From contig JAGCWE010000022.1 of the NCBI GenBank assembly GCA_017962005.1, forward strand, positions 1 through 40,469: a stretch of DNA of 40,469 nucleotides, read 5' to 3'. This document shows positions 18,477 to 37,396 of the stretch, in pieces. The first letter of the stretch is position 1, and every line of letters starts with the position of its first letter. A program made the translations under genes and the position numbers. This stretch comes from Paludibacteraceae bacterium (lineage in GTDB: Bacteria > Bacteroidota > Bacteroidia > Bacteroidales > Paludibacteraceae). The notes beneath the pieces are model-generated. The model did not search any database. It had not been told where the DNA came from and saw only the letters and a list, made by a program, of their open reading frames with translations.

Positions 18477-20231
18477 TTACATTGACAAAATTGCTCTTAG
18501 ATTCGTATCTGTAAATGTGTGCCAAATCATTAATTTGACAGGCTTATAGTCTTCGAACAACTGCTTGACATACTTTATCTCGAACACTAAACGGAAATCG
18601 TTCTCGTCAGCCATTTCCTCGAACTCATGTTTTGTACCAACACGTGCAACCTCAATCAAGTACAGGTCACGAATGCCCTTTCCTTTCGTGTATGGCATAA
18701 AGTAATAGAGTTTGTTCAGCTTTACCGTCGAAGGGAACTTTTTGCCTGTAAAGTAAGCCTTTGCGCGATGATGGGTATATGGCTCAAGATACTTATCAGG
18801 CACGAGACTTACCAACACGCTCTTTGAGTCATCAAGATCCCTGTTGTCAATGAGTTTCTTGCGAGCGAGTGTATTACTAATAATGCTAACACCTTTAGGA
18901 TACTGCTCATGCAGGTCGAACATATCCAGTTCAAAGAGTTGCGGGGGCAGCATTTCATGCCCAACGCGTACCGCTTCTTCGTATTGGCTATCTTCAGGAT
19001 GCCGCGCATCAATCTCATTGAAGAGACGAATCAACGAACGCCCAATAGCAAAAGCAAGATTCACAGGCACGGCATTACCTATCTGCTTATATTGGTCATT
19101 TATGTTGCCCTCAAACTCCCAATAATCAGGGAATGTTTGAATGCGTGCATATTCACGAACAGTCAAAGGACGTGTCTCTGTAGGGTGACAACGCTCTGTT
19201 TGTTTCTGAGCAGGAGCACAAGTTAATGTTAAAGACGGCTCATCCATAGACAGACGACGAGCCATTCCAGTCTTACCTCCTCCAAGATAGAAACTTCCCC
19301 CCATATACTCTTTCTGCTTTTCAATTGGCAGGTCACGCCAATCACCACCCTCCGGCACCAATGACATCACACGGGCTTTTTTTGCAGGATAGAGTTGTCC
19401 TTGTGATTCCGGCACATCTTTATCGAAGAGTTCACCAGAGAAAAATGCATCACGCAGCGTCATCACTCGCCGATAAGGGTCAGGCCACTTGAAGCGAAAG
19501 CCTTGCTCATAGATGTCATTGCGTATTGCCACAAGAATCAGTCGCTCTCGCTTTTGAGGAACTTGATACATGATTGCTTTCAGCACACGCGGCTCAACTA
19601 ATGTATAACCAAGTTCTGCAATAGCATTACGAATAACATCAAGTGTCTTTCCTTCTTCATGTGACAGCAATCCTTTCACATTTTCACCCATGAACACTTT
19701 GGGTTGAATTTCACGCACGGCACGAGCCAACTCAAAGAACAAGGTACCACGAGTATCATTCAAACCGCCCTTTTTTCCGGCATATGAAAATGCCTGACAG
19801 GGGAAACCTCCTGAAAGAAAGTCAACCTTACCACGAAGGGGAGTGAAATCCACCTGATGAATGTCTCCTTCAAGTACATTCCATTCGGGGTGGTTTCGCC
19901 TTAATGTCTGACAGGCCATTGCATCCATTTCATTCAACAGTACATGACGGAAACCTGCCAAATGCATACCAAGTGCCAAGCCTCCAGCACCAGCAAAAAG
20001 TTCTACGGATGTAAAGTCACGAAGTGGCGCAACATGGAATTCCTCATCCCAGTTGGAGTCAAGCATCATGCGCACCGGTTCCACATCGGTTAGTTCCTCC
20101 ATGTAGAATCCCTCTTTGCCTTTTTCGTTCCTGTGATAAGGATATATGCCGCTCTCCCCCCACTTCTGTGCAGTAGCGAGTGATGTTCCCGTGAGGTCGG
20201 CTAAGTTTGTTACAGATAAAAATGTATACAT
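18477..20231 (-). CDS. DNA (cytosine-5) methyltransferase of an Eco47II-type R-M system
   Basis: 584-residue C5 methyltransferase. Residues 1-50 (SVTNLADLTGTSLATAQKWG) look like a helix-turn-helix, as in C5 enzymes that repress their own operon. The catalytic motifs follow: I FAGAGGLALGM (about residue 79), IV GGFPCQAFSYAGK with the nucleophilic cysteine, VI GENVKG, VIII QKRERLILVAIR, IX REYARIQTFPDYW and X QIGNAVPVNLAFAIG. About 150 residues after motif X form an extra C-terminal domain of unknown role. Paired with an Eco47II-like endonuclease it should methylate within GGNCC (inference from that family). The gene starts 2 bp after the endonuclease stop, so both are translated from one message. 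Confidence 0.92.
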   Translation of the reverse strand: MYTFLSVTNLADLTGTSLATAQKWGESGIYPYHRNEKGKEGFYMEELTDVEPVRMMLDSNWDEEFHVAPLRDFTSVELFAGAGGLALGMHLAGFRHVLLNEMDAMACQTLRRNHPEWNVLEGDIHQVDFTPLRGKVDFLSGGFPCQAFSYAGKKGGLNDTRGTLFFELARAVREIQPKVFMGENVKGLLSHEEGKTLDVIRNAIAELGYTLVEPRVLKAIMYQVPQKRERLILVAIRNDIYEQGFRFKWPDPYRRVMTLRDAFFSGELFDKDVPESQGQLYPAKKARVMSLVPEGGDWRDLPIEKQKEYMGGSFYLGGGKTGMARRLSMDEPSLTLTCAPAQKQTERCHPTETRPLTVREYARIQTFPDYWEFEGNINDQYKQIGNAVPVNLAFAIGRSLIRLFNEIDARHPEDSQYEEAVRVGHEMLPPQLFELDMFDLHEQYPKGVSIISNTLARKKLIDNRDLDDSKSVLVSLVPDKYLEPYTHHRAKAYFTGKKFPSTVKLNKLYYFMPYTKGKGIRDLYLIEVARVGTKHEFEEMADENDFRLVFEIKYVKQLFEDYKPVKLMIWHTFTDTNLRAILSM

Positions 20232-20233
20232 CT

Positions 20234-20971
20234 CTAAAAATTGTCAAACCCTTCGTATGTTTTGAACGCAAGGAGATACAAACTCTTCATAATATCCGGT
20301 GATATTGCAGCCAACTCTGCAAAAACGGTATTCTGATTTGTAGAATTACCTAATTCTTTAATAACATCATCCAATATTGATGGGAGAGCTTTACACAGTT
20401 TTGCAAAAGCCAATGAATCATCAAACACTATTTCATAGAACTTATCCATTGATACGCGTCGAATATGCTCATTTTCAAACCTTTCTTTATCGACAGTCGC
20501 TATCCAAGTTTTATCTTGAGAGCGAGTCGCGATGGCCTCAACAAGCATACAAGTAGCTTTGCTGTCACGGATAATTTTGTTCTGCATCTTCATATACGTC
20601 TTTTGAGATGCCGCAGAATTCATGGTGTTGTGCTTGTTCTTCATTTCCACATAAATGTGTTTGTCTTCATTAACGACATCGAATCCTTCTGTGGGAACAG
20701 ACCAACCGTTACCTGCATAACGGAATAAATTCTGATGAAAGTATCCTATATGATTGTTGTTTGACTTATCCATCTGGCGAATACATTCAGAAGCAACAAC
20801 TTCTTCCATTGTCCTTCCATATACTTTCGCATCAAATGTTAATTTAATAGGATCAACAATATTCTTATTAAACTCCTTTAAATCTATATTTGCGCTATAT
20901 CGTTGTACTGTCTCTTTTACGTGTTTGAAAATGTCTTCATCTGAAATGAAGCCCAAATTGTACTTTTTCAT
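20234..20971 (-). CDS. Eco47II family type II restriction endonuclease
   Basis: 245-residue protein recognised as the Eco47II family from LGFISDEDIFKHVKETV at the start, DLKEFNKNIVDPIKLTFDAK, NNHIGYFHQNLFRYAGNGW and MNSAASQKTYMKMQNKII. The likely PD-(D/E)xK site is GFDVVNEDKHIYVEMKNKHN (Asp, then Glu-x-Lys). Eco47II cuts GGNCC, so that specificity is predicted. It is the first gene of the cassette; promoter elements must lie in the spacer upstream. Composition is clearly more AT-rich than the flanking metabolic genes, which together with the bordering repeats suggests horizontal acquisition. No damage to the frame is seen, so the system is probably active. Confidence 0.9.
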   Translation of the reverse strand: MKKYNLGFISDEDIFKHVKETVQRYSANIDLKEFNKNIVDPIKLTFDAKVYGRTMEEVVASECIRQMDKSNNNHIGYFHQNLFRYAGNGWSVPTEGFDVVNEDKHIYVEMKNKHNTMNSAASQKTYMKMQNKIIRDSKATCMLVEAIATRSQDKTWIATVDKERFENEHIRRVSMDKFYEIVFDDSLAFAKLCKALPSILDDVIKELGNSTNQNTVFAELAAISPDIMKSLYLLAFKTYEGFDNF

Positions 20972-21149: not shown

Positions 21150-21204
21150 GGTAGCGCAAGGGTTGAGCAAGGGTAGCGCAAAGGTAGCGCAAAGGTAGCG
21201 GATG
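21150..21204 (+). repeat. five tandem 11-bp repeats (GGTAGCGCAAA type)
   Basis: Five consecutive 11-bp units: GGTAGCGCAAG, GGTTGAGCAAG, GGTAGCGCAAA, GGTAGCGCAAA and GGTAGCGGATG. It ends 117 bp before the long 11-bp array. The complement of the last unit, CATCCGCTACC, shares eight bases with CATCCGCTCGG units of that array, so the two may be related in inverted orientation. Confidence 0.85.
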
Positions 21205-21222: not shown

Positions 21223-21252
21223 CAAAGATACGGAAAAAAATACGTCTGCAAA
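21223..21252 (-). promoter_or_regulatory. weak candidate promoter toward the R-M cassette
   Basis: On the minus strand TATCTTTG (21230-21223) fits the -7 box and TTTG (21252-21249) lies 18 bp upstream, one base short of the usual range. Transcription would cross the five-unit 11-bp repeat and give a leader of about 240 nt before the endonuclease start. Confidence 0.4.
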
Positions 21253-21320
21253 ATTATTTGTGTGCCGCGACAATCATCCACCTCACACCATGCCCGCTTT
21301 TTCTATCCGTACGGGGTGCC

Positions 21321-21683
21321 TATTCCTACACTATCCTTTCAATATTTATTCGCTATCGCTTCTGCATCCGTTCTGTCCCCCTACAGTATCGCTTCGGTAT
21401 CCCATCGGCATCCATTCGGTATCCGTTCGATATCGTTTTGGTATCCGTTCGATATCGTTTCGGCATCCGCTCGGTATCGCTTCGGTATCCCATCGGCATC
21501 CGCTCGGTATTCATTCGGTTTTCATTCGGAAACGCTGCGGTATCCGTTCGGCAAGGGTTCGGCATCCGTTCGGAATTACTATAGTATTCCTATAGTATCC
21601 CTAAAGTATTCCTATAGTATTCCAGCAGTATTCCAACAGTATTCCTATAGTATCCTTATTGTATCCCTATAGTGTTCTGCCTA
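21321..21683 (+). repeat. 33-unit 11-bp tandem array in perfect register
   Basis: From 21321 to 21683 the sequence divides into 33 consecutive 11-bp units without one insertion or deletion. Units 1-23 follow roughly TATCCGTTCGG, with CATCCGCTCGG and TATCGCTTCGG variants; units 24-32 shift to TATTCCTATAG. Each type has a central dyad (CCGTTCGG or CTATAG), so a symmetrical element recurs every helical turn. An off-phase copy, TATCCGTACGG, sits at 21304-21314. The array ends at the stop codon of the minus-strand oxidoreductase gene. All three plus frames are open through part of it because the period is not a multiple of three; no protein is claimed. Confidence 0.93.
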
Positions 21684-24590
21684 CGATTCGGGCGAGGGGA
21701 GAGATGAGGAGGACGGATGGCGGAGGAGGCGGAAAAGAATGTCTATCGGATGAAATGCCGTGACGCCCGTGCCGTCCTTTATCTGCGTGCGGCAGGATAT
21801 GCCCGGAGCCGCCACAAAAACAGGGCGCTCCACCGTATTGCCCTCCACCGCCTTGCGCACAGCAGGGAAAAGAACCATCTCGCCGATGGCAATGGAAGTC
21901 CTGTAATGCGCCTTCTCATAGCCGAACGAGCCCGCCATTCCGCAGCAGCCCGACGGGATGACATGCACATCGGCATTGGCAGGCAAAGACAAGAGCGCCG
22001 CCGTCTGCTCCACCCCGACAAGCGCCTTCTGATGGCAGTGCCCGTGCAGCCATATCTCCGCAGGCATATCGGAGAACGCATCCTTGGTAATGCGCCCCTC
22101 CCTCACCTCGCGCATCAGGAACTCGTCATAGAGCAGGCTGTTCGTGCCCAATGCCTCCGCTTGCTCCCTCAGTCCGGGACTGACCAGACGCGGGTACTCG
22201 TCGCGGAACGTGAGAATGCACGAGGGTTCGATGCCTACAAGCGGCGTGTCGGGCGTGACAAGGCCTGCAAGCAGGCGGACGTTCCTCTCCGCAAGCCGTC
22301 CGGCACGGCGCAGGCACCCCTTGGATATGGCAGCCCGTCCGCTTTCCATGTGCGGCGGGATGATGACGTTATAGCCCAGACGGTTGAGCAGGGCGATGAA
22401 CGTGCGCGCCAATGCGGGTTCCTGATAGCGCGTGAACTCGTCGAGGAAGAAATACACCGACCGCTTTGCTGCCAGACCGCCTGCGCTGTCAGACCGCTTT
22501 GCCGCCAGACCGCCTGCGCTGTCAGATATCATCGGGATATTCCTCTCTTCAGCAAACCCTATCATCTTTTTCAGCCACGCGGAGGTGAGGCGGTTGCCCG
22601 CAAAGAAGTTGTAGAGACGCGGCACAAGCGAACCGATACGCTGGACGTCGGCATTGCGCGCCACGAGCCACGTGCGCAGCGGCGTACCCTCGCGGTCGTA
22701 CAGCGACTGCAGGACCTCGGCACGCAGGCGGGTCATATCCACGCCCGAAGGGCACTCGCGCCTGCACGCCTTGCACGCCAGACAAGTGGAGAGCACCTCC
22801 TTCAAATCGCTTGCGTCCACCGGTCCGTGCTCCAAGAACTCGCGCATGATGTTGGCGCGGGCGCGTGTGGTGTGCAGTTCGTCGCGGCTGACCTTGTAGG
22901 CAGGACACATCGTTCCGCCGATGAGTGAAGACTTGCGGCAGTCACCCGCGCCGTTGCACCTCTCCACGCGGCAGAGCAGGTCGTCGCCCGTCCACGAACG
23001 GAGTGCGCGCAGGTAGTCGTCCATCCTGGGCGTGTCCACAATCTTATGCGGGTTGAAGATGTTGTCCGGATCCCAGCAGCGTTTCACCTGCCGCATCAGC
23101 TCGTAGGTCGATTCGCCGTACTGCAAGGGAATGAACTCCCCGCGCAGGCGTCCGTCGCCATGCTCGCCGCTGATGGTCCCGCGGTGCTTCCGCACAAGCA
23201 GGGTGGTCTCGCGCGCTATCTCGCGGAAGAGCCGTCTGCCCTCCTCTGTCTTGAGATTGAGGACAGGGCGCAAGTGCAGTTCGCCGGTGCTGATATGTCC
23301 GTAGAAGACGCATGATGTATTGAGCCGCCGGAGCATGTCGCGGAAATCGCGCATGTATGCCGGGAGCCGCGCGGCAGACACCGCCGTGTCCTCGATGACC
23401 CCTGTGGGCTTGGCATCGCCCTCCATGCCGTTGAGTATGCCCAATCCCGCCTTGCGGAGGTTCCAGACCTTCGCCACGTCGTCGCCATAGACGCGCGTGC
23501 AGAGGGTGACGAGACCGCTTTGCAGCAGTTCATCCTCCAGCCTCTCCGCCTGCCTGTCCACCGCCTCACGTGTGTCCGCGCGCAGCTCGGCGATAAGCAG
23601 CGCGGCAGGGTCGCCCGTGACGAAGAAGCGCTCCACATTGGTGTTCGCCTTGCTCAGTTGCAGGATGTCATCGTCCATCAGTTCGACGGCTGCGGGGCTG
23701 TGCCGGAGTGCAATGAGGTTCGCCTCGAACGCGGCGTCAAGGGTCGTGCAGTGGGCGCAGACGACCATGACCTCCTTTGGCGGCAATGGGTCGAGCGACA
23801 CCTTGATGCGGGTGAGAAAAGCCAGCGTGCCCTCGCTGCCCGCAATCAGGCGGCAGAGGTTGATGGTCCTGTCCTCCAAAGGACGGCTATCGTCGCAGAG
23901 GTCCGCAATCACCTCGTCGATGGCGTAGCCGCAACTGCGCCGCGCGAGGTCCCTGTCGGGATAGGTCTCTTCGATGAGCGTGCGGGTCTGCGGGTCGAGG
24001 GCGAAACCTATCAACTGCGCATAGACACGCCCGATGAGCGTAGCCTGCGGCTCCAGCCAGAACCTTGCGCCGAAACGTTGTTCCAATTGCGCAACGCTGT
24101 ATTCGGCGAAACGCTCCGCCGTGCCGTCGGACAAGATGCCTTCCGCCTCAATAAGATGCCTGCGCGTGCTGCCGTAGATGAGCGAATGCGTGCCGCAGGA
24201 GTTGTTGCCGACCATCCCTCCGATGCAGCAGCGGTTGGACGTGGATGTCTCGGGGCTGAAGAAAAGCCCGCAGGGACGGCAGGCGATGTTCAGTTCGTCG
24301 CGCACTACACCGGGTTCGACCCACGCGTAACGCTCCTCCCTGTTGATTTCGAGGATGCGGTTCATGCAGCGGCTGATGTCCGCCACGATGCCGCTGCCGA
24401 CCACCTGTCCGGCAATGGATGTGCCGCCCGCACGAGGGATAAGGCTCGTTCCGAACCTGCGTGCCTCGGCTATGAGCGCACGTATGTCCTCCGCACCGGC
24501 CGGATACGCCACGCCGTAGGGCAGCTCGCGATAAACGCTCGCGTCGGTGGCATACGCCACCTTGTGGATGTTGTCGGTCAGGATGGTCAT
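21681..24590 (-). CDS. FAD-linked oxidase / Fe-S oxidoreductase fusion (D-lactate or D-2-hydroxyacid dehydrogenase-like)
   Basis: 969-residue two-part enzyme. The N-terminal half is an FAD-binding-4 domain (PRAGGTSIAGQVVGSG at residues 52-67, then GNNSCGTHSLIYGS) with its FAD-oxidase C domain (SGEHGDGRLRGEFIP). The second half is a glycolate oxidase/heterodisulfide reductase-like Fe-S module: CNGAGDCRKS and later MCPAYK, CLACKACRRECPSGVDMTRL near residue 605, and the CCG-type motif SGCCGMAGSFGYEK near residue 880. It should oxidise a D-2-hydroxyacid such as D-lactate and pass electrons via the clusters to the respiratory chain; the substrate is unproven. Residues about 690-711 contain an in-frame 11-residue duplication. 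The gene follows the binding-protein gene by 12 bp. Its stop abuts the 11-bp array. Confidence 0.88.
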   Translation of the reverse strand: MTILTDNIHKVAYATDASVYRELPYGVAYPAGAEDIRALIAEARRFGTSLIPRAGGTSIAGQVVGSGIVADISRCMNRILEINREERYAWVEPGVVRDELNIACRPCGLFFSPETSTSNRCCIGGMVGNNSCGTHSLIYGSTRRHLIEAEGILSDGTAERFAEYSVAQLEQRFGARFWLEPQATLIGRVYAQLIGFALDPQTRTLIEETYPDRDLARRSCGYAIDEVIADLCDDSRPLEDRTINLCRLIAGSEGTLAFLTRIKVSLDPLPPKEVMVVCAHCTTLDAAFEANLIALRHSPAAVELMDDDILQLSKANTNVERFFVTGDPAALLIAELRADTREAVDRQAERLEDELLQSGLVTLCTRVYGDDVAKVWNLRKAGLGILNGMEGDAKPTGVIEDTAVSAARLPAYMRDFRDMLRRLNTSCVFYGHISTGELHLRPVLNLKTEEGRRLFREIARETTLLVRKHRGTISGEHGDGRLRGEFIPLQYGESTYELMRQVKRCWDPDNIFNPHKIVDTPRMDDYLRALRSWTGDDLLCRVERCNGAGDCRKSSLIGGTMCPAYKVSRDELHTTRARANIMREFLEHGPVDASDLKEVLSTCLACKACRRECPSGVDMTRLRAEVLQSLYDREGTPLRTWLVARNADVQRIGSLVPRLYNFFAGNRLTSAWLKKMIGFAEERNIPMISDSAGGLAAKRSDSAGGLAAKRSVYFFLDEFTRYQEPALARTFIALLNRLGYNVIIPPHMESGRAAISKGCLRRAGRLAERNVRLLAGLVTPDTPLVGIEPSCILTFRDEYPRLVSPGLREQAEALGTNSLLYDEFLMREVREGRITKDAFSDMPAEIWLHGHCHQKALVGVEQTAALLSLPANADVHVIPSGCCGMAGSFGYEKAHYRTSIAIGEMVLFPAVRKAVEGNTVERPVFVAAPGISCRTQIKDGTGVTAFHPIDILFRLLRHPSSSSLPSPES
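22459..22524 (-). repeat. 33-bp in-frame tandem duplication inside the FAD/Fe-S oxidoreductase
   Basis: Two 33-bp copies (22459-22491 and 22492-22524) differ at one base and encode SDSAGGLAAKR twice, just before the SVYFFLDEFTRY segment of the C-terminal half. The frame is maintained. Confidence 0.9.
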
Positions 24591-36886: not shown

Positions 36887-37396
36887 TATGATTTTAGTAG
36901 GTTGTTCCTCGACTGGAACGCGACCAAGCTGTACGAGGAGCAAGTGGAGAAAGGCAAGGACGCGAAAGGACCGGACACCAACCCGACCCGCGAGGGCTAC
37001 GTCTTCACCGGCTGGGAGCCTGACATCAAGAACATCACCGCCGACCGCACCGTGATAGCGCAGTACGAGAAGTCGAAAGTCTATTTCACGGTCACCTACC
37101 TCGACTGGAACGCCACCAAGCTGTATGAGGAGAAAGTGGAGGAAGGTCACGATGCCAAGGGACCGGAGACCAACCCGACCCGGGACGGCTATGTCTTCAC
37201 CGGCTGGGAACCCGACCTGAAGAACATCACCGCCGACCACACCGTCATCGCCCAGTATGAGAAGCAAGGCGCGACGGGTCTGGATGACCTGCCGGGCGCA
37301 GAAAGCGGAACAGCCCGCAAGTTCCTCCGCAACGGCGTGCTCTACATCGAGCGCGGCGGGAAGACGTACACGGTTCAGGGCACCGTACTCAACTGA
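36887..37396 (+). pseudogene. 3' fragment of a surface protein with InlB B (Listeria-Bacteroides) repeats
   Basis: The frame opens after TAG at 36884 and has no ATG; it reads straight into a repeat and so lacks any signal peptide or start. Two 64-residue InlB B-type repeats are present (LDWNATKLYEE, NPTREGYVFTGWEPD, TVIAQYEK and their second copies), with a 192-bp DNA period. A linker GATGLDDLPGAESGT leads to a C-terminal RKFLRNGVLYIERGGKTYT that resembles the sorting-type tail common at the ends of Bacteroidales surface proteins. ATG 36888 is in another frame. It is best read as the tail of a larger adhesin-like gene left after deletion, perhaps at the adjacent 22-bp repeats. Confidence 0.7.

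Follow-up and report, generated by a model that had tools for sequence, protein, structure and literature searches.

An array of 32 in-phase 11-bp units and the prevalence of 11-bp intergenic tandem arrays around a Paludibacteraceae genome

The window analyzed here, a 40,469-nt stretch from the genome of a gut-type Paludibacteraceae bacterium (G000), contains an array of 32 in-phase units of 11 bp downstream of an oxidase gene (Table 1). The reading that we favor, with rather more confidence than doubt, is that this main array belongs to a set of intergenic minisatellites that is specific to the lineage and expands by whole units, with a strong preference for a unit of 11 bp. This reading is built on what can be observed directly, namely the array itself, related arrays, a preference for one length, and differences in unit number among dispersed copies. 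Text searches of open-access papers returned no description of 11-bp arrays from this lineage.

The main array and its surroundings

Identity at lag 11 within the main array is 0.683, compared with 0.268 ± 0.025 (maximum 0.35) in 2000 dinucleotide shuffles, such that the autocorrelation proposed earlier as a check speaks for the repeat. A scan of the whole window at periods 6 to 39 peaks at 21381 for periods 11, 22 and 33 (0.73, 0.70 and 0.69, respectively), with every other period at or below 0.43. Head-to-tail units whose in-register identity exceeds chance are characteristic of a minisatellite, or long-unit tandem repeat, and the main array consists of such units.

The original prediction described 33 in-phase units without a register slip, ending on a stop codon. 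Thirty-two of these units are exact in phase, with no indels, but the 33rd, TGTTCTGCCTA (21673–21683), which overlaps the 3' end of the neighboring gene, fits the consensus poorly. The stop codon (21681–21683, minus strand) belongs to that gene, which encodes an FAD-linked oxidase, and lies 9 nt past the last unit. No slip is seen inside the array; at its left edge, however, the unit TATCCGTACGG, 10/11 identical to a left-class unit, precedes the first in-phase unit by 17 bp (11 + 6, leaving a 6-nt spacer) and is therefore out of register, so the main array is not entirely slip-free.

The two diverged unit classes expected from that prediction are present, with TATCCGTTCGG-like units on the left and TATTCCTATAG-like units on the right. 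Their common degenerate consensus is TATYCNTWYRG, in which the best-kept columns are A at position 2 (30/32), T at position 3 (29/32) and G at position 11 (27/32), and position 6 is almost free. The classes form blocks, as the distance between adjacent units over the whole main array is 3.48 vs. 4.44 when units are permuted (p = 0.0004). Within the left class alone, the likeness of neighbors does not exceed chance (3.82 vs. 3.90, p = 0.38), so that no sign of recent local duplication is seen in that class. The small dyad that had been attributed to every unit could not be upheld: CCGTTCGG is exact in 2 of the 32 units and CTATAG occurs in 5, and any 3+3 dyad with a 0–2 nt center is found in 10 of 32, compared with 20 ± 7% in letter-shuffled units. 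With dyads in this minority of units and two unit classes, the array lacks a uniform binding motif per unit.

Table 1 Features at the array locus, with positions in the window
Feature	Position	Strand	Basis
Main array, 32 in-phase 11-bp units	21321..21672	+	Unit table and shuffles
Out-of-register unit TATCCGTACGG	21304..21314	+	Sequence
Second 11-bp array, GGTAGCGCAAA x 4.6	21150..21200	-	Tandem Repeats Finder
FAD-linked oxidase with iron-sulphur domain	21681..24590	-	ORF and Pfam
Eco47II-type restriction endonuclease, first gene across the gap	20234..20971	-	PF09553, E 1.4e-82
C5 cytosine methyltransferase, endonuclease partner	18477..20231	-	PF00145, E 1.1e-82

A gap of 710 bp separates the oxidase from the restriction endonuclease and its methyltransferase, all encoded on the same strand. 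On the minus strand, the second array in this gap reads TACCTTTGCGC, TACCCTTGCTC, AACCCTTGCGC and then TACCGATAAGC, the last of which also occurs in the sister species G011. Between the two arrays lies a possible promoter of the restriction-modification operon, picked out by eye (21223–21253, minus strand; TTTG ... TATCTTTG). Among 16 window proteins scanned with Pfam, one of them a spurious ORF through the array, no partition or replication-initiator family was found. The window has no tRNA, nothing in it reaches the gathering score of an Rfam family, and a structured RNA was rejected, with fold z-scores of −1.71 as RNA and −1.96 as DNA. Two other tandem repeats of the window are a 33-bp near-perfect duplication within the oxidase gene (22459–22526; 2.1 copies, 97%), in frame by length, and a 192-bp repeat of 1.9 copies within a small ORF (36907–37264), which we presume to resemble cell-wall InlB-type repeats.

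Related arrays and the preference for an 11-bp period

Is the main array an isolated case? Elsewhere in the window's genome, the array DNA matches five more short stretches. One of these, on contig C15, shares a 46-bp stretch at 93% and combines the same three unit classes, TATCCCTATAG, GGTAGCGCAAG and TATCCGTTCGG, in another order. In L002 (1–1140), this C15 composite adjoins a gene for what we take to be a leucine-rich-repeat protein of the BspA type. Counting the window's own genome, 8 of 61 genomes match the main array at E 0.001.

To quantify arrays by period, a detector that gives every period equal treatment was applied to 2.02 Mb (194 kb non-coding) from the window's genome and from its genus and close relatives. 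Gene calling in this census was crude, taking the longest ORF, and as a result the main array was scored as coding and lies outside the counts. Among the resulting stretches, a non-random sample in which all G011 contigs included, contigs C5, C15, C27 and C109 of G000, and the stretches of G009, G013, G015, G018 and G019 were picked by an earlier search match, period 11 accounts for 50 of 100 intergenic tandem arrays. Periods 9, 10, 12 and 13 have 0, 1, 1 and 0 arrays, whereas periods 7, 8 and 16 have 22, 9 and 5. The period-11 arrays fall into 19 word families, compared with 12 at period 7, 5 at period 8 and 3 at period 16. In G011, 34 of the 48 arrays found in 400 kb are of period 11, and G000 has 7 among 16 in 273 kb; at least one such array is present in 8 of the 11 genomes from which 40 kb or more was sampled. 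One word family, AGACCGCTGCGCTGAC-like, forms 16-bp tandem arrays in two genus members (L156, 1–80 and 6970–7033; L146, 8507–8590).

Other Bacteroidales have period 11 in 2 of 15 arrays in 0.93 Mb (p = 0.011 vs. the 50 of 100), one of the two, in G053, having been fetched for its own match. Because G011 contributes 28 of the 50 arrays, the comparison without it becomes 22/61 vs. 2/15 (p = 0.12). The enrichment of 11-bp arrays in other genomes, which had been named as a check, is therefore positive inside the genus, mainly through G011. In genome-wide autocorrelation, lag 11 is striking in G011 only, at 9.6 robust SD above the median; in G000 it stands at 1.7, lower than lag 21.

The G011 genome further shows that the register extends beyond single arrays. 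Lag 11 is still raised there when detected arrays are masked (0.285 vs. 0.265), and the 11-bp register bridges differing words up to ~250 bp, beyond which it is lost. At lags of 60–110, 150 recurrences of 7-mers fall on multiples of 11, compared with 12–37 for each other residue, and at lags of 110–250 the corresponding numbers are 74 and 22–48. At loci L260 and L272, words change, and even turn round, without loss of register.

The position of the main array itself is not conserved. We located 17 relatives through the oxidase (69–75% identical), labelled Bacteroidales or Paludibacteraceae and many of them from ruminants; these loci (L026–L042) may overlap the genus genomes of the census. None of the 17 has an array within 700 bp downstream of the orthologous oxidase gene, and their best lag-11 stretches (0.39–0.58) do not exceed lags 10 and 13 (0.36–0.58), compared with 0.91 in the window. 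A comparison of orthologous gaps within the sampled stretches comprises 16 region comparisons only, in which the sole array-bearing gap is counted from both sides and its partner has no array.

Period-11 arrays occupy divergent gaps in 19 of 46 cases, a weak excess, and convergent gaps in 8 of 46. In 19 co-directional cases the C-rich strand is coding in 10 and the G-rich strand in 9, an absence of strand bias toward genes. The unenriched convergent gaps led us to reject a terminator, the 10 vs. 9 split a transcribed element of fixed orientation, and inspection by eye of the main-array units, which have no A-tracts, curvature by phased A-tracts.

Do the words of these arrays share an origin? 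Among 26 family representatives, mutual likeness is 5.87 vs. 5.70 ± 0.04 for letter-shuffled words and information is 5.56 vs. 5.04 ± 0.19 (best shuffle 5.65), values that would lend at most weak support to one common ancestral word behind the families. A pattern of three phased copies of the core GTATYC at a spacing of 11 matches 4 of 247 Bacteroidales genomes with 122 matches (6 in G000, 5 in G053, 80 in G094 and 31 in G126), and at a spacing of 10 it matches none of the 247. The same pattern written backwards, as a control, matches 4 genomes at a spacing of 11 (16 matches) and 4 at a spacing of 10 (215 matches, 188 of them in G241). GTATYC was therefore rejected as a special core common to the families, as the backwards control matches as many genomes at a spacing of 11. 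Lineages elsewhere in Bacteroidales have 10- or 11-bp arrays of other words, and the 10-bp arrays of G241 together with the 11-bp arrays of G094 and G126 indicate that unit lengths near one helical turn recur. The G241 arrays read CYTATGARYT, and many of the 188 pattern matches are paired, the two partners inverted toward each other at a distance of some tens of bases. In viral contigs, the GTATYC pattern gives 44 stretches at a spacing of 10, 95 at 11, at least 120 at 12 and 12 at 13; with multiples of 3 set aside, a spacing of 11 thus ranks first, though it is not unique. At 80 loci examined from those 95 stretches, most matches are true tandem copies, 76 of 125 having identical spacers.

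Unit number, register and the forces that may act on them

The behavior of whole units is most apparent in G011, where the AATCACCCACT element occurs in five dispersed copies that carry 3, 6, 7, 9 and 3 whole units. Conserved sequence borders these units for ~50 bp on the left and over a shorter length on the right. Since the unit number varies from 3 to 9 between like flanks, whole units are gained and lost. A sixth G011 array (L124) has other flanks and was excluded from this comparison. In addition, the two copies of a 201-bp element that is 96.5% identical have 4 vs. 2 units in their second array. Whole-unit copy-number variation, as expected of a minisatellite, is in this way present among dispersed copies in a sister species.

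This gain and loss of whole units, the scatter of arrays without conserved position and the lack of strand preference argue for minisatellite turnover. Copies of short 11-bp units would be added and removed as whole units, with slippage or unequal recombination as the probable process, and substitutions would then make them diverge, such that their wording turns over as the 11-bp register stays. Words also occur elsewhere in intergenic DNA of the genome, partly within larger dispersed repeats. Passages of PMC4060949 state that mismatch repair handles loops of 1–3 bp well and longer ones poorly, and slippage of long units would fit this property. On this reading, the array would have no function tied to its particular site. 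Against the minisatellite reading stand the near-absence of indels and the sharp length preference, both of which go beyond what plain slippage predicts, as well as the chance-level likeness of left-class neighbors and the large share of G011 in the census.

A fundamental question is then whether the spacing is under selection, as had been proposed. Spacing is indeed kept better than sequence (50 arrays vs. 2 at periods 9, 10, 12 and 13 together, and rare slips), whereas selection itself belongs to an alternative hypothesis, in which the register is selected because the units are helically phased sites. A nucleoid protein or regulator would bind them on one face of the DNA with a loose demand on sequence, for example upstream of promoters, and we consider this possible but tentative. 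Unit length is fixed while words vary, as this hypothesis would have it, the register of G011 continues across different words, and at L260 and L272 even inverted words stay in register. The main array, moreover, ends ~50 bp upstream of the candidate promoter. Slips are also rarer at period 11, where 1 indel accompanies 195 substitutions in the 50 arrays; the ratios are 6/129 at period 7, 6/57 at period 8 and 1/20 at period 16, or 13 per 206 pooled (Fisher p = 0.0019; p = 0.02 vs. period 7 alone). In two genomes of other families, period 11 has 1 indel with 97 substitutions, and periods 8, 10, 16 and 22 have 3 with 6, 1 with 2, 8 with 10 and 22 with 17, respectively. However, period 7 in these genomes has 0 with 37, in arrays of G126, and the slip contrast of 11 vs. 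7 is therefore not repeated there. Homopolymers make up a larger fraction of bases in the 7-bp arrays (0.118 vs. 0.006), and their GC content is lower, properties that may make indels more frequent in them. At the indel rate of the other periods, the main array would have a chance of 0.07 of showing no indel. The absence of arrays from the 17 orthologous places, the lack of strand preference and the weakness of the excess in divergent gaps argue against phased sites as well, as do the loss of register past 250 bp in G011 and the lack of a conserved dyad. By simple arithmetic, a unit of 11 bp compared with a turn of 10.5 would accumulate ~1.5 turns of drift across 32 units.

An extension of this hypothesis, which we think unlikely, is that intergenic DNA of the genus forms a lattice of one helical turn, as it would, by independent origin, in other Bacteroidales lineages that have arrays of 10 or 11 bp. 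Words would be free to change in such a lattice, whereas its register would be under selection because an abundant DNA-binding protein coats the gaps turn by turn. If this were true, the array would be a sequence-tolerant structural element and not a repeat relic.

Mobile elements and known repeat systems

Transposition offers another explanation, in which MITE-like mobile elements carry the arrays along as they spread, comparable to the BrickBuilt minisatellite of Porphyromonas gingivalis. Several G011 array families do lie inside larger dispersed repeats of up to ~200–260 bp, some of them inverted, and some of these families share conserved flanks among copies; G056 likewise has a nearly identical 10-bp-period sequence at ~20 places. 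The window's own family (TATCC), however, has little in common beyond the array; for L107 14870 and L124 14386, the shared flank in the listed G011 pairs does not exceed 21 bp, one longer match excepted. Contigs C107 and C15 share the array only, and other places in the window's genome match the main array only inside it, without the conserved flanks of a MITE. Many unrelated word families would, in addition, all need one 11-bp unit, and we judge this explanation improbable. Passages of PMC4596501 describe BrickBuilt as alike in its Bacteroidales host and in having tandem repeats inside dispersed intergenic elements, but with 23-nt units and terminal inverted repeats, whereas the main array lacks shared flanks.

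The iteron or centromere-like partition site suggested in the original prediction is very improbable, its unit length being that of the R1 parC repeats but the evidence against it comprising the scatter of many different words over many genomic places, the lack of a partition or initiator family among the 16 scanned proteins, dyads that are not general, and 0 of 17 arrays at the orthologous place. Passages of PMC9426499 describe 11-bp direct repeats, as here, in R1 parC and other ParR-bound centromeres, and report that ParR of R1 requires at least two of them; unlike those centromeres, the present arrays are dispersed and sequence-diverse, and the scanned proteins include no par genes. A further known periodicity, the ~11-bp helical periodicity of bacterial genomes, is in the passages of PMC4132750 a weak A/T dinucleotide signal of mostly coding DNA, whereas here whole words repeat in intergenic DNA.

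For the minisatellite reading, the closest known counterparts are intergenic long-unit simple repeats, among which are the cyanobacterial STRR heptamers. The kind is thus already known, and the variant here is that one length is dominant across many words. The prokaryotic repeats of this kind treated in passages of PMC4060949 have units of 4–11 bp and are likewise short tandem, intergenic, lineage-specific and present in many copies per genome; repeats with 6–11-bp units are strongly over-represented in the intergenic DNA of some archaea. Those passages name other genomes for the 6–11-bp excess and single out neither 11 bp nor this lineage, whereas here 11 bp dominates with unrelated words.

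Sequence is the usual basis for describing tandem repeats, and here many unrelated words have one length in genomes that are dense in such arrays, G011 above all. A length of about one helical turn is measured out either by the process that generates the repeats or by something that binds them. The question raised for these genomes is what fixes the unit at 11 bp, the step size of the making or the need of a binder.
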